Below, piece after piece: positions 4,773 through 56,028 of a stretch of 64,000 nucleotides of DNA (position 1 is its first letter; each line of letters begins with the position of its first letter). The stretch is from Pseudobutyrivibrio sp. Lineage in GTDB: Bacteria; Bacillota; Clostridia; Lachnospirales; Lachnospiraceae. The stretch covers positions 1-64,000 of the forward strand of contig NZ_JAFUSK010000023.1 of assembly GCF_017471675.1 (NCBI RefSeq). Direction: 5' to 3'. The position numbers and the translations under genes are program-made. The notes beneath the pieces are model-generated. The model was not told where the DNA came from. It saw nothing but the letters and a program-made list of their open reading frames with translations, and ran no database searches.

Positions 4773-5318
4773 TTGAGTAGATTAAAAGATCAGTATCTTA
4801 ATGAGATCGTACCAGCAATGGTAGAGAAGTTCGGATACAAGAATATTATGGAAGTTCCTAAGATCGACAAGATCGTTGTCAACATGGGTGTTGGCGAAGC
4901 AAAGGACAATGCAAAGCTTCTTGAGTCTGCAGTCAAGGATATGGAAATGATTACAGGCCAGAAGGCAGTTACAACAAAGGCAAAGAACTCAGTTGCTAAC
5001 TTCAAGATTCGTGAAGGTATGGCAATTGGTTGCAAGACTACACTTCGTGGAGAAAAGATGTATGAGTTCGCAGATCGTCTCATCAACCTTGCACTCCCAC
5101 GTGTACGTGACTTTAGAGGTGTAAATCCTAATTCATTCGATGGTAGAGGTAACTACGCTCTTGGTATTAAGGAGCAGATTATCTTCCCTGAGATCGAGTA
5201 CGATAAGATTGACAAGACTCGTGGTATGGATATCATCTTCGTAACTACAGCTAAGACAGATGAAGAGGCTAGAGAATTACTTCGTTTATTCAACATGCCT
5301 TTCGCTAAGGAAGCATAG
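4773..5318 (+). CDS. rplE: 50S ribosomal protein L5 (uL5)
   Basis: A 181-residue protein starting at TTG ([12 protein letters not shown]) with AAAGGAG nearby at 4757-4763. It carries the L5 blocks [11 protein letters not shown] and [21 protein letters not shown]5 binds 5S rRNA and touches the P-site tRNA. TTG is unusual for an abundant ribosomal protein, but no better start aligns with the family N-terminus. Confidence 0.96.
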
Positions 5319-49596: not shown

Positions 49597-51105
49597 ATGG
49601 CAGATAAGACCAATGCTAATATTGGATTTGAAAAACAACTGTGGGATGCAGCTTGTGTTCTTTGGGGACATATTCCTGCAGCAGAATATAGAAAGGTTAT
49701 AATTGGGCTTATTTTCCTTAGATATATTTCTGCAGCTTTTGATAAGCGCTATCAGGAGCTTGTAGATGAAGGTGATGGTTTTGAGGATGACATGGATGCC
49801 TACATCATGGAAAATGTTTTCTTTGTACCAGAGGAAGCTAGATGGAGTACTATATCAGCTGCTGCTCATACACCTGAGATTGGTACAGTTATTGACAATG
49901 CTATGCGTGCAATCGAAGCTGACAATAAGGTTCTTAAGAATGTATTACCTAAGAATTACGCCAGTCCAGATCTTGATAAGAGAGTTCTTGGTGAAGTTGT
50001 AGATATATTTACTAATAATATTGATATGAGTGACACTGAGGCAAGTGAAGATTTGCTCGGACGTACTTACGAATACTGTATCGCGCAGTTTGCAGAAAAG
50101 GAAGGTGTAGGTGGAGGAGAATTCTATACACCATCAAGTGTAGTTAAGACATTAGTTTCCATACTTAGACCATTTGAAAACTGCCGTGTGTATGATTGCT
50201 GCTGTGGTTCGGGCGGTATGTTTGTCCAGAGTGCAAAGTTTATAGAGGCTCATTCTGGCAATAGAGGCTCTATCTCTGTGTATGGTCAGGAAGCAAATGC
50301 TGATACTTGGAAGATGGCTAAGATTAATATGGCAATCCGTGGTATTGATGCAGATTTTGGGCCTTATCAGGCTGATACATTTACAAATGATTTGCATCCT
50401 ACACTTAAGGCTGATTTCATTCTTGCTAATCCACCATTTAATTATCATCCTTGGAATCAGGAAAAACTTCTTGAGGATGTTAGATGGAAATACGGACTAC
50501 CTCCAGCAGGAAATGCCAACTATGCATGGATTCAGCATATGATTCATCACTTAGCTCCTAATGGAAAGATTGGTTTGGTACTTGCGAATGGAGCTTTATC
50601 TACACAGACAAGTGGTGAAGGAGAGATTAGAAAAAACATAATAGAGGATGATTTGATTGAAGGTATTATTGCAATGCCTACTCAGTTATTCTATAGCGTT
50701 ACTATTCCGGTAACACTTTGGTTTATTTCTAAAAATAAACAGCAGAAGGGAAAAACACTGTTTATAGATGCCAGAAATATGGGCCATATGGTTGATCGTA
50801 AGCATCGTGATTTTGATGATGAAGATATCCAGAAGCTTGCGGATACATTTGAAGCTTTTCAGAATGGAACACTTGAAGATGTTAAAGGCTTCTGTAAGGT
50901 CGCAACTACAGAAGAGATTGAGAAGCAGGATTATATTCTTACTCCAGGTAGATATGTAGGCATTGAAGAGCAGGAAGATGACGGTGAGCCATTTGAAGAA
51001 AAGATGGATAGATTAACATCTGAGCTTTCTGATATGTTTGCAAAATCTCATGAGCTCGAAGACGAGATTAGAAGAAAGTTGGGGGCTATTGGATATGAAA
51101 TCTAA
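49597..51105 (+). CDS. hsdM: Type I restriction-modification methyltransferase subunit HsdM
   Basis: A 502-residue N6-adenine methyltransferase. N-terminal HsdM helical domain (FEKQLWDAACVLWGHIPAAEYRKVIIGLIFLRYIS), SAM motif VYDCCCGSGGMFVQS, catalytic NPPF in ADFILANPPFNYHPW. With HsdS it methylates target sites; with HsdR it restricts. CGGAGGAAG supports the start. It overlaps hsdS by 11 nt, so the S subunit is translationally coupled. Codon use is like its neighbours. Confidence 0.96.
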   Translation: MADKTNANIGFEKQLWDAACVLWGHIPAAEYRKVIIGLIFLRYISAAFDKRYQELVDEGDGFEDDMDAYIMENVFFVPEEARWSTISAAAHTPEIGTVIDNAMRAIEADNKVLKNVLPKNYASPDLDKRVLGEVVDIFTNNIDMSDTEASEDLLGRTYEYCIAQFAEKEGVGGGEFYTPSSVVKTLVSILRPFENCRVYDCCCGSGGMFVQSAKFIEAHSGNRGSISVYGQEANADTWKMAKINMAIRGIDADFGPYQADTFTNDLHPTLKADFILANPPFNYHPWNQEKLLEDVRWKYGLPPAGNANYAWIQHMIHHLAPNGKIGLVLANGALSTQTSGEGEIRKNIIEDDLIEGIIAMPTQLFYSVTIPVTLWFISKNKQQKGKTLFIDARNMGHMVDRKHRDFDDEDIQKLADTFEAFQNGTLEDVKGFCKVATTEEIEKQDYILTPGRYVGIEEQEDDGEPFEEKMDRLTSELSDMFAKSHELEDEIRRKLGAIGYEI

Positions 51106-51631
51106 TTGGACAATAAAAAAATTATCAGATATTGCTGAGTTCAATCCTAAGGAACGACTTTCTAAAGGAACAGTTGCAAAAAAAATAGCAATGGATAAGC
51201 TTCAGCCTTTTTGTAGGGATGTTCCAGAATACGAAAACGTAGCATTTACAGGAGGTTCTAAGTTTCGTAATGGGGATACTATTATGGCTAGAATTACTCC
51301 ATGTCTTGAGAATGGTAAAACAGCTAAGGTAGCTATTCTTGACGATGGTGAAGTGGGATTTGGATCAACTGAATACATTGTATTTAGAGCAAAGTAAGAA
51401 GTTGATGAAGATTATTTATATTATTTAGTATGTAGTCCAGAGGTAAGAGAGCCTTCAATAAAATCAATGGTGGGTTCATCTGGAAGGCAGAGGGTTCAGA
51501 CAGATGTTGTTCAGAATTTGGAAATTTTGGTTCCTACGTACGCTGAGCAAAAAGCTATTGGAGCAACATTAAAATTATTAGATGACAAAATAGCTTTAAA
51601 CAATAAAATAAACGATAATTTAGCGGCTTAA
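51095..51631 (+). pseudogene. hsdS: HsdS N-terminal half with in-frame stop, joined at inversion site
   Basis: Specificity subunit, first target-recognition domain. It starts MKSNWTIKKLSDIAEFNPKERL and runs with one TAA at 51395-51397 (after IVFRAK); the same frame then continues as EVDEDYLYYLVCSPEVREPS, clear HsdS sequence, through EQKAIGATLKLLDDKIALNN. It ends NDNLAA-stop at 51631 exactly where the repeat site (51608-51627) interrupts it. A complete HsdS needs a second half, found inverted at 51628-52313. As it stands, translation yields about 100 residues. The TAA could be a real nonsense mutation, a suppressed codon or a sequencing error. Confidence 0.85.
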
Positions 51632-52313
51632 ATATCTAGTTCGGTGACATCAATTTCACCGGACATCAAACGTGGCAAAAGTATATCCCTTAAGGCTGAT
51701 AATCGTTCATTTTCTGAACGATTATTAAGGTATTCTTGAATCATTGGCTGAACTTGCTTTTTCCATTGCAATTGCCTATCTATTGGCGGACATTGAAATG
51801 GAATCTTTTTAAGGTTGGTTGCAGGTTGAGCAATTGATGGTACACCTGTTTGATTAGCATAAGAAAGTAACTCATGCTGTCCAATTGCGCTGTGAAAAAA
51901 CATAAGTAGGAATTCAGGAACAACTTTTGTTTCATCACATCGTAAATAGAATTGACGCTGTGATAGTACATAATAATCATATTTAGAACCATCAGGAATC
52001 ATTGATACTTGTCCAATATTCCCAGCATGAGTAAATATGAGATCATGAGGGTACACAATTGAATTTTTCAAACGTTCAGCATGTTCTTCTGTTATGTAGT
52101 TGAATTCTGGTTCTTCCAAGAAATACCCTCGCAGATGGTTTCCACTAATAATAGGCACACCTTCTGGAACGAAAGTAGATACTTTAATGTTTGAACCAAA
52201 AGGACCCATGGCCACTTTCTCTGCTACATCAAGAATAGTTGCTGTTGGCCAATTATTATCCTGAATAAGGTGTCCATATAAAGCTATTACTTGCTGAAGT
52301 AAATTATCGTTTA
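51608..52313. repeat. Invertible hsdS segment bounded by inverted sites A and B
   Basis: Site A: 51608-51627 plus strand, ATAAACGATAATTTAGCGGC. Site B: 52300-52313 minus strand, sharing 14 of 14 bases TAAACGATAATTTA. Both encode NDNL in the hsdS frame, so inversion between them keeps the reading frame and would fuse the 176-codon N-half to 223 residues of the inverted half (about 399 in all). Confidence 0.85.
51628..52313 (-). pseudogene. Silent HsdS second-half cassette, inverted
   Basis: On the minus strand the frame reads NDNLLQQVIALYGHLIQDN from site B, then VAEKVAMGPFGSNIKVSTFVPEGVPIISG, a second target-recognition domain, then the C-terminal helix and the canonical end LRDILLPRLMSGEIDVTELDI. 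It has no own start with a ribosome site (the first internal start is GTG at 52215) and no promoter, so it is expressed only if inverted onto the hsdS N-half. Its stop overlaps the end of that half, tail to tail. Confidence 0.85.
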
Positions 52314-52344: not shown

Positions 52345-53433
52345 ATGAATGATTTAATAAAATATACAAATACAAATGATATTATGAATGATGCGTGTAA
52401 TATCATTGAAAGTGCACAGCGAGTGGCGATTCAATCAGCTAATATTTCTTTGGTATTAAGAAATTGGCTTTTAGGAAAGCGTATTTCTGAGGAGGAATTA
52501 AAAGGCGAGGATAGGGCTGAATATGGCTTGGAAGTTGTAAAAAGACTTTCTGATTCACTTACTGAAAAGTATGGAAAGGGTTTTAGTAAGAGAACGATTT
52601 ATAAGTTTTTACAATTCTATAAGACATTTCCAAAGATTGTGCCGACAGTGTCGGCACAATCAGTAGAGAATGGAATTGTGCCAACACTGTCGGCACAATT
52701 GCTGTCATGGTCTCATTATGAGCGTTTACTACAGGTTGAGGATAAGGATGCTCGCGAATGGTATGCAAAGGAAGCGTATGAGCAGACTTGGAGTATCAGA
52801 ACTTTGAGCAGAAATATTTCAACTCAGTATTATTATCGATTGTTGAAATCACAGGATAAAACTGGTGTTGAAAATGAAATGATAGAACTGACAAGACCAT
52901 TACAGGACAAACTTGAATTCATTAAGAATCCTGTTATAGCTGAATTTCTTGGGATGCAAGAAAACACATCTTACTATGAGTCAGATTTAGAACAGTGCAT
53001 TATTGATAATCTACAGAAATTCCTTATGGAACTTGGAAAAGGATATGCGTTTGTTGCAAGGCAGCAGCATATACATACCGATAAGGAAGATTATTATATT
53101 GATTTAGTGTTTTATAACTATCTTTTAAAGTGCTTTGTTCTAGTGGATTTAAAAACTGACAAAATAACACATCAGGATGTTGGGCAGATGGATATGTATA
53201 TCCGAATGTATGATGAGTTGAAAAAAGCTCCAGATGATAATCCAACTTTGGGTATTGTATTATGCTCGGAGACGGACGAAGATATTGCGAAGTATTCCGT
53301 ACTTCATGAAAATGAACAACTATTTGCTTCAAAGTATAAATTATATCTTCCAACTGAAGAAGAACTAAGGGCAGAAATAGAAACGCAGAAACAATTTTAC
53401 TATTTGCAGAGAAAAGATAAGGAAAAAGAGTAA
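52345..53433 (+). CDS. DUF1016/YhcG-type PDDEXK nuclease-domain protein
   Basis: A 362-residue protein. The N-terminal DUF1016 domain (residues 1-170; LRNWLLGKRISEEELKGEDRAEYG, SWSHYERLLQVED) is followed by a PD-(D/E)xK nuclease-like domain with YYIDLVFYNYLLKCFVLVDLKT holding the Asp and D-x-K residues. Such genes recur in type I RM loci, but their role is not established. AAAGGA supports the start at 52345, not the ATG at 52318 just behind site B. It contains an in-frame duplication IVPTVSAQ/IVPTLSAQ, each copy a palindrome in DNA. Confidence 0.87.
   Translation: MNDLIKYTNTNDIMNDACNIIESAQRVAIQSANISLVLRNWLLGKRISEEELKGEDRAEYGLEVVKRLSDSLTEKYGKGFSKRTIYKFLQFYKTFPKIVPTVSAQSVENGIVPTLSAQLLSWSHYERLLQVEDKDAREWYAKEAYEQTWSIRTLSRNISTQYYYRLLKSQDKTGVENEMIELTRPLQDKLEFIKNPVIAEFLGMQENTSYYESDLEQCIIDNLQKFLMELGKGYAFVARQQHIHTDKEDYYIDLVFYNYLLKCFVLVDLKTDKITHQDVGQMDMYIRMYDELKKAPDDNPTLGIVLCSETDEDIAKYSVLHENEQLFASKYKLYLPTEEELRAEIETQKQFYYLQRKDKEKE
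52636..52699. repeat. Duplicated 25-bp palindrome inside the DUF1016 gene
   Basis: Copy 1 at 52636-52660 is a perfect palindrome (12-nt arm ATTGTGCCGACA, 1-nt centre). Copy 2 at 52675-52699 differs at two positions. Period 39 bp (13 codons), encoding the IVPTxSAQ repeat. Confidence 0.9.
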
Positions 53434-54509: not shown

Positions 54510-55118
54510 ATGAGTAAATGGAAAACTTGTACCATTGGTGATATAGGTACGGTAGTTGGTGGAGCGACACCTCCTACGAAAAAAGAAGAAAACTATTTAG
54601 ATGGAACAATATCATGGATTACTCCGAAGGATTTAGCTGGATTTTCTGGTAGATATATATCTAGAGGAGAAAGAAATATAACAGAAATAGGTTTAAATAG
54701 CTGTTCCACACAGTTGATGCCAGCGCATACTGTCCTTTTTTCTTCAAGAGCACCGATTGGTTATGTGGCAATTGCAGAAAATGAAGTATGCACAAATCAG
54801 GGATTTAAAAGCGTTATTCCAAATACAGATACTGATTATATGTTTCTATATTATTTGCTTAAATATAATAAAAATAAGATAGAGAATCTTGGTAGTGGCA
54901 CTACATTTAAGGAAGTTTCAGGATCCACAATGCGTAATGTTGAAATTAAGGTACCTGAAACTATAGAAGAACAGAGAAAGGTAGCATCTATATTATCCGC
55001 AATTGATGACAAAATAGAAAATAATAATGCAATAAACGATAATCTTGCCAATTTAAGAGATGCCTTATTACCTAAGCTTATGTCTGGTGAATTAGATGTC
55101 TCTGAACTCGACATCTAA
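54510..55118 (+). CDS. Half-length HsdS specificity protein
   Basis: A 202-residue half-HsdS with its own start (MSKWKTCTIGDIGTVVGGATPP; weak AGAAAGG site). One target-recognition domain, the conserved helix EEQRKVASILSAIDDKIENNN, then NDNL at site C and the canonical ending LRDALLPKLMSGELDVSELDI. Half-size S proteins can dimerise to give a palindromic specificity, so this could be the currently active S subunit; that is inference. Site D lies directly after its stop. Confidence 0.88.
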   Translation: MSKWKTCTIGDIGTVVGGATPPTKKEENYLDGTISWITPKDLAGFSGRYISRGERNITEIGLNSCSTQLMPAHTVLFSSRAPIGYVAIAENEVCTNQGFKSVIPNTDTDYMFLYYLLKYNKNKIENLGSGTTFKEVSGSTMRNVEIKVPETIEEQRKVASILSAIDDKIENNNAINDNLANLRDALLPKLMSGELDVSELDI

Positions 55119-55138
55119 GCTGCTAAATTATCGTTTAT
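55032..55138. repeat. Inverted sites C and D around the end of the half-HsdS gene
   Basis: Site C: 55032-55043 plus strand, ATAAACGATAAT, then diverges. Site D: 55119-55138 minus strand, matching site A at 19 of 20 bases. The 107-bp C-D interval carries only the C-terminal tail. Sites A and D together are inverted repeats spanning 3.5 kb with the DUF1016 and recombinase genes inside. Confidence 0.85.
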
Positions 55139-55152
55139 CAGAGGAACTCAAT

Positions 55153-56028
55153 ATGACTAAACAACATACAGCAAAACAACATTTTGTCCCTCGATTTTTG
55201 TTAAAACATTTTTCTTGTGATGAGAATCATGTGTTTGTTTTAAACAGGATGATTGACAAAATCTATAGAACGACAGTTGATAGTATCTGCTATGAGAATG
55301 ATATTTACGATGAAAAGTGGAAAGATGTTATCGAGGAATTAGGCAAATATGTTTTAGATAATCAAATAGAAGAGTATTTTGCTGATTTAGAATCCAAAAC
55401 ATCACCTTTAGTTAAGCATATAATAGCATTGATTAAATCTGGAACGCATAATGTTAAATTATCAAAAGAAGAACATGACATTATATCAGAGTTTATAACA
55501 ACGTTGTATTTAAGGAATCCTTATACGTTGAAATCTATTATAGATTATTATGACGGTGTTGAAGATGAGCCAGATTGTGAAGCAATGATGTACGTTGTAG
55601 ATTACCTTTTCTCTACAGCTAAATGGGGTAGTCCAATGTCATTACTAGTTTATTCTAAGAAGGCTGGAATATTTAGTAAGGAAATCGAAGGAAGTCCATA
55701 TAACGTAGAGTATGAAAAGATAAGTAATATGAAGTACATATTCTGGTATGCAAAAGAAGGAGGTATTATTACATCATCGTTTCCGCTGCATATCATGTCT
55801 GCCGATGGTGAACGTGCAGAGCGTATCATATGTCCGCTTTCAAATGAAGTTGCACTAGTATTATTTGATTCAATGCCATATCCTATGAAAGAGGGGATGG
55901 TTATAGAGATTGATGAAGATAATCTCAAATGGAATATGAACTTTTTTTATAGAACGTATTCAAAAGAAATGGCGAGATTATTTATAGCAAAAGACGAGGA
56001 AACACTTAATCGAATCAAAAAGAATTGA
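55153..56028 (+). CDS. DUF4238 domain-containing protein
   Basis: A 291-residue protein starting MTKQHTAKQHFVPRFLLKHFSCDENHVFVLNR, which is the DUF4238 N-terminal pattern (H-x-VP-x-F-L-x-F). The later EFITTLYLRNPYTLKSIIDYY and a predicted beta-rich end are unassigned. The family is often near restriction or other accessory genes; its function is unknown. GAGGAAC after site D supports the start at 55153; a longer frame from 55096 overlaps the half-HsdS gene. hsdR follows after 10 nt. Confidence 0.8.
   Translation: MTKQHTAKQHFVPRFLLKHFSCDENHVFVLNRMIDKIYRTTVDSICYENDIYDEKWKDVIEELGKYVLDNQIEEYFADLESKTSPLVKHIIALIKSGTHNVKLSKEEHDIISEFITTLYLRNPYTLKSIIDYYDGVEDEPDCEAMMYVVDYLFSTAKWGSPMSLLVYSKKAGIFSKEIEGSPYNVEYEKISNMKYIFWYAKEGGIITSSFPLHIMSADGERAERIICPLSNEVALVLFDSMPYPMKEGMVIEIDEDNLKWNMNFFYRTYSKEMARLFIAKDEETLNRIKKN

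Follow-up and report, generated by a model that had tools for sequence, protein, structure and literature searches.

A proposed inverting type I restriction-modification locus of Pseudobutyrivibrio sp. that probably holds one specificity subunit at a time, here reduced to a half-size HsdS

Based on Pfam and NCBIfam matches, the 64,000-nucleotide stretch of Pseudobutyrivibrio sp. DNA analysed here (the window) contains hsdM, hsdS and hsdR at a single locus (Table 1). The hsdM product is 98% identical to the copy in another genome of the genus (G028). The hsdS gene is present in several parts. The first N-terminal half (N1) overlaps the end of hsdM, and the cassette that follows it carries a C-half on the strand opposite to hsdM. 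The second N-half (N2) has its own start, with its ATG 12 nt past the recombinase stop. A Methylase_S scan of the whole genome (98.23% complete, 0.34% contaminated) matched only the two N-halves of this locus; the weakly matching C-half was unreported there. For the YhcG and DUF4238 genes, the start positions were picked by eye.

Table 1. Features of the hsd locus, in positions of the window.
Feature	Position	Strand	Evidence or remark
hsdM, type I DNA adenine methylase subunit, 502 aa	49597..51105	+	Pfam N6_Mtase 7.8e-108, HsdM_N 8e-24
hsdS N-half 1 (N1), overlaps hsdM end	51095..51631	+	Methylase_S 58 bits, one TAA inside
N1 in-frame TAA	51395-51397	+	
Site A, TAAA-CGATAA-TTTA	51609..51622	+	exact 14-mer TAAACGATAATTTA
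N1 off-state stop, after NDNLAA	51629-51631	+	
Invertible cassette 1: hsdS C-half (second target recognition domain, TRD, and C-terminal repeat), off orientation	51628..52311	-	Methylase_S 3.1e-05
Site B	52300..52313	-	exact 14-mer
YhcG/DUF1016 family PDDEXK nuclease gene	52345..53433	+	YhcG_C 7.8e-53, DUF1016_N 7.7e-39
Tyrosine recombinase, XerA-like, 328 aa	53511..54497	+	NCBIfam NF040815 228.7 bits, cut-off 220
hsdS unit 2: N-half 2 (N2) and C-terminal repeat, 202 aa	54510..55118	+	Methylase_S 1.2e-36
Site C, right arm decayed	55033..55046	+	TAAACGATAATCTT; two bases off, both in the right arm
Site D	55124..55137	-	exact 14-mer
DUF4238 gene, passenger between site D and hsdR	55153..56028	+	DUF4238 2.9e-33
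hsdR, type I restriction subunit, 1034 aa	56039..59143	+	NCBIfam hsdR TIGR00348 1.7e-184

The hsdS parts share inverted repeats, three exact and one decayed. An earlier note on this DNA had named the inverted pair formed by sites A and B, which is present as described, and had overlooked the third exact copy (site D), the decayed fourth (site C) and the second hsdS unit behind the recombinase, so that it delimited only part of the switch. In 100 shuffles of the window, exact matches to the 14-mer had a mean of 0.00, against the three copies seen, which rules out chance for the exact copies; with two mismatches allowed, 4 sites stand against 1.11 expected and 5 of the 100 shuffles reach 4, which is a weak excess.

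At site A, the N1 frame ends with NDNLAA and a stop, and the C-half on the minus strand begins with the same NDNL codons, both as previously claimed. N1 had also been taken to be open up to the site. This is not the case, as the in-frame TAA at codon 101 leaves only 100 aa. The inverted product predicted from N1 and the C-half does have the proposed length of 399 codons, but it reads as 100 aa, a stop and 298 aa rather than as an intact HsdS. Inversion between sites A and B (A x B) would thus not restore a working HsdS because N1 carries the nonsense codon, and this candidate was rejected. In the computed A x D inversion N1 stays broken, and in C x D inversion N2 becomes a 181-aa frame ending in NDNLAA. 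A two-domain S is absent in the present order and would need B x C inversion, which uses the decayed site C and joins N2 to the C-half of cassette 1, giving an open S of 402 aa on the minus strand. We infer that switching would change the methylome. Beside the site, two stops on opposite strands overlap, the off-state one of the N-half and the true one of the C-half (in the window at 51623-51631).

The TAA of N1 looks recent when the sequence is set beside its relatives. The nine closest N-halves (68-77% identity) have a sense residue at the codon-101 position. Furthermore, the divergence from three relatives that align without gaps, all of which lack a stop at this position, is 0.14-0.25 at codon positions 1 and 2 and 0.51-0.60 at position 3 on both sides of the stop. 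This conservation, with changes mostly in third positions, and the sense residues of the relatives would also be seen if the TAA were a sequencing or assembly error or were read through, leaving an ordinary switch in the off orientation. However, a recent true nonsense change would give the same picture, the completeness and contamination values of the genome speak against an error, and real decay is suggested because unit 2 has been altered separately, with its second TRD absent and site C decayed. We therefore regard an error or readthrough as quite unlikely.

Unit 2 is the only complete S frame of this genome's locus, N1 being interrupted by its nonsense codon and cassette 1 being off, and the frame is half-size because unit 2 is without a second TRD. 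The second recognition domain is missing in register, leaving one domain in 202 aa. N2 is 83% identical to the N2 of a related locus (L013) over residues 1-179 and then passes directly into the C-terminal repeat. Additionally, the half-S aligns end to end with the C-halves of relatives, and its tail is in register with their ends. Among the loci examined by residue pattern, unit 2 is the only short frame in which the C-terminal repeat directly follows NxNL; the remaining short frames found in this way were read as C-half cassettes. In a sequence search, half-S residues 3-197 match residues 227-423 of 1yf2, the second half of a solved two-domain S subunit. An AlphaFold2 monomer model built from 17 sequences (mean pLDDT 89.5, pTM 0.82; five models from 51.8 to 89.5) shows a single complete domain, with an unbroken 41-residue helix (residues 152-192) across the junction. 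Collectively, sequence, alignment and monomer model point to a half-S with one TRD and a complete predicted dimerisation helix.

Half-size S subunits have precedents. According to the accessible part of PMC3874165, those of EcoR124I, EcoDXXI and NgoAV are homodimers with palindromic specificity, and the accessible part of PMC6158711 describes an engineered half-S as active. The window half-S resembles EcoR124I delta-50, EcoDXXI::Tn5 and NgoAV in having a single-TRD S, which forms a homodimer there; these precedents are type IC in the accessible text of PMC3874165, which may not be the family of the window system. Unlike them, the predicted half-S lies at a site of a recombinase locus, with the C-terminal repeat fused in register there. 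By analogy with these cases, the half-S would be a working subunit, and N2 is presumably expressed. The system had earlier been called off. This holds for cassette 1 and is doubtful for the whole system, because N2 is open with its predicted helix and loci of this type mostly have one joined and one unjoined unit.

Separate lesions in both S units are also what a dead locus would show, with N1 broken, unit 2 truncated, the half-S non-working and hsdM and hsdR idle remnants. In the same direction, M-S-R loci with no recombinase found occur in the same-genus genome G019 and in one Ligilactobacillus salivarius plasmid strain, so the shuffling module can be absent. Nevertheless, no frame is interrupted in hsdM, hsdR, the recombinase or the half-S, and the in-register truncation keeps the whole predicted dimerisation helix, which would be a rare outcome of random decay. 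We consider a dead locus unlikely.

The tyrosine recombinase reported nearby by the earlier note is an intact XerA-like gene within the locus. R186, K210, H276, R279, H302 and Y311, which we take to be its catalytic residues, are all intact and are invariant in 81 of 81 aligned sequences (the window and the best 80 related loci). No close solved relative of the recombinase was found, the best match being 4a8e at 81.7 bits. In a survey of the genus, recombinases at E 1e-60 or better occur in 4 of 29 genomes, the window genome included, and only the one in G028 exceeds 63% identity. The recombinase is probably active in this genome. Tyrosine recombinases exchange strands inside their site; the arms are recognised, and the spacers must match.

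To describe the locus type, we used the best 80 of 553 confirmed recombinase-relative loci (69-91% identity) and G028, 81 loci in all. Sites of the form TAAA-N6-TTTA are common to these loci, as are a pair of N-halves that each have a start and a pair of invertible C-half cassettes. In 59 of the 81, there are exactly four sites of a single type; the remaining 22 include two loci with none (L016, L040) and the three-unit loci L081 and L084. Across the 59 four-site loci, the arms are TAAA and TTTA in 224 of 236 sites, the other 12 differ only at the first base, and ten different 6-bp spacers occur; this uniformity of the arms, and of the spacer inside any one locus, is in part a product of the method, because sites were picked with at most 3 mismatches to the window site and 13-base identity within the locus. 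In L018 and L011, the spacer of the first site pair differs from that of the second unit. The sites encode N-x-N-L in the S frame. Their flanks on the non-coding side show almost no conservation, and the effective site is thus about 14 bp. In most loci, an unjoined N-half terminates six codons beyond the first codon that lies in the site.

Cassettes were identified from frame and site, and Pfam was run on five pieces outside the window, of which four matched Methylase_S. The piece without a match is the second C-half from G028, which nonetheless has the usual C-terminal repeat at its end. G028 itself has four exact sites and cassettes unlike those of the window; its unit 1 is joined, giving a 379-aa S, and its unit 2 is unjoined.

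Of the 55 four-site loci in normal order, 51 have exactly one unit in the joined orientation. Neither unit is joined in L060 and L078, and both are in L072 and L068, the latter at contig edges. The 51 include L012 and L075, in which N1 is cut off or broken and the cassette orientation clear, as well as L042, L047 and L076, which have unusual ends. Independent flipping would give one half (binomial p about 2e-11, treating the loci as independent). When 54 of the 55 loci (G028 left out) were grouped at 95, 90, 85 and 80% recombinase identity, only one-joined loci were found in 37 of 41, 23 of 27, 17 of 20 and 13 of 15 groups, respectively, and both joined positions occur inside the larger groups; the pattern thus survives grouping. 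The two commonest classes are about equally common, with N2 joined and N1 unjoined in 24 loci versus the reverse in 21.

A replicate set of 20 loci came from other genomes of the family, after three already in the first set were left out. In 12 of them (recombinases 54-60% identical), the search used gave no site pair, and these were left out; among the eight with the site type, seven have one unit joined (L145 by three sites) and one has none. Among plasmid records, such sites are present in six of seven loci (all except L113, left out), and five of these six have one unit joined, including L110, whose unit 2 is without a cassette, and one has none. The states differ among strains for the L. 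salivarius plasmids. In L081 and L084, three units stand in a row, two of them joined and one unjoined, so that both loci break a strict rule of one S. In L084, two N-halves are equally identical to the window N2.

In L038, L044, L069 and L074 (4 of 59), the middle segment that carries the recombinase runs opposite to hsdM, as it partly does in L017 and L082. The reversed loci are one-joined because geometry forces it, as both N-halves face one cassette. In L151, two sites lie 12 bp apart at about 4956-4995 in recombinase orientation, cassette 1 is empty, an extra site follows further on, and no full-length S was seen.

Inversion itself can be traced in one pair of related loci, L054 and L055. 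Here, the N1 and N2 stretches are 100% identical over 540 bases, and 2 of 2037 and 2 of 1592 flanking bases differ. The first cassette differs at 629 of 879 bases when compared directly and at 2 of 878 when inverted, and it therefore lies in opposite orientations. The breakpoints fall exactly at the site limits, with differences starting at the first base outside each 14-bp site. The anatomy of the window locus is that of an inverting hsdS locus with its own tyrosine recombinase, in support of the earlier note, and this related pair shows one cassette in both orientations. The second cassettes of L054 and L055 have no mutual match at 85% or more. In another pair, L067 and L079, whose N1 stretches are 99.6% identical, a cassette of 95% identity is joined to N1 in L067 and to N2 in L079; their other cassettes likewise have no mutual match at 85% or more.

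The one-joined pattern could arise from the rules of recombination, for example through linked inversions or an excision followed by reintegration, and selection for one S would then not be its cause. In the model, four sites give 16 states, 8 of them with a reversed middle. From a one-joined start, B x C inversion, A x D inversion and excision-reintegration (A x C, then B x D) keep the pattern, and the cassette shared by L067 and L079, joined to different N-halves, is what such rules would produce. In contrast, single-cassette flips break the pattern in the model, and the in-place flip of cassette 1 between L054 and L055 does so unless unit 2 changes, as it did there. Nor is there a clean swap in L067 and L079, as their other cassettes are unmatched. 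Recombination is also not free among all states, because half of the model states have a reversed middle versus 4 of 59 loci. We hold recombination rules to be a real contender, at somewhat less than even odds.

The usual description of phase-variable type I systems has a single expressed S gene that is supplied by silent donors, and the published inverting loci are presented in this way in the accessible part of PMC7394358. Applied to this locus, hsdS beside hsdM would be the expressed gene and N2 only a silent donor. Against this, among the 45 loci that make up the two commonest classes, 24 have N1 unjoined and N2 joined. Moreover, N2 starts -20 to +40 nt from the recombinase stop in 66 of 74 loci, and it thus looks translated behind the recombinase. 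A single expressed gene beside hsdM is very unlikely here.

Collectively, the sequence evidence favours an inverting type I locus that probably carries one S at a time and has here decayed to a half-S. In the proposed mechanism, two C-half cassettes would serve two expression sites, with N1 following hsdM and N2 following the recombinase. Strand exchange by the recombinase would take place within the 14-bp sites, with the arms recognised and matching spacers required. The flip of a cassette would join or unjoin an N-half and a C-half, larger rearrangements could swap cassettes, and usually exactly one full-length S would be assembled at any time. The window would represent the state with unit 2 joined, in which unit 2 has been shortened to the half-S and unit 1 is broken and unjoined, and the half-size HsdS would work as a homodimer at a split palindrome. 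The present state may be locked by the decayed site C, and the window copy may shuffle poorly or uselessly because the right arm of site C is lost and N1 is broken. More tentatively, a widespread recombinase family may hold one full-length HsdS across two expression sites and two cassettes, with a palindromic half-size HsdS filling the rule here and B x C inversion still able to give a two-domain S; we put this wider reading at a little under an even chance.

Inverting systems make up 3.9% of type I systems in the accessible part of PMC7394358, and specific inverting or shuffling type I loci are described in the accessible parts of PMC4948785, PMC7096588, PMC4783014 and PMC6265443. Pneumococcal cod/ivr (SpnIII, PsrA), compared by locus description and not by PsrA sequence, is likewise a type I system with hsdS parts exchanged by inversion and a recombinase in the locus, and PsrA uses a short repeat, the 15-bp IR1 (PMC7096588 and PMC4948785, in part). 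It differs in having three hsdS genes, with three repeat pairs changing the hsdS-A allele, whereas the present locus type has a single repeat type and two C-half cassettes common to two N-halves, each with a start, and usually one is joined. The Listeria monocytogenes ST8 hsd locus also has hsdR, hsdM and two hsdS genes flanking an integrase, with four inversion variants, but its repeats are 16 and 29 nt, its hsdS genes are opposed, and both N and C domains are exchanged (PMC4783014, in part). In pneumococcal tvr (SpnIV, TvrR), hsdS parts are again shuffled by a recombinase in the locus, but through direct repeats and circular intermediates, with the type I coding sequences on one strand (PMC6265443, in part). 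A literature search, not phrased in these terms and with few subscription papers in it, found in the accessible text no account of paired expression sites with a single unit joined, which is weak evidence of novelty.

If two expression sites were held with only one of them complete, the cell would in effect count specificities. The basis of such counting might be the wiring of recombination or the cost of two or no specificities, which would be self-cutting of unmethylated DNA or absent defence, respectively. A half-S arising in such a locus would also offer a natural path by which split asymmetric recognition becomes palindromic.

Passenger genes occupy two slots, one from site B to the recombinase and the other from site D to hsdR. 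The first slot carries YhcG in the window, G028 and L031, and some short genes in L018, L026, L033, L042, L047, L057 and L058, of which some resemble, by eye, Fic, nucleotidyltransferase/HEPN, RhuM-like and zeta-like proteins. Within the YhcG gene of the window, a 25-bp palindrome-like repeat occurs twice (52636-52660 and 52675-52699), with starts 39 bp apart and the second copy 92% identical.
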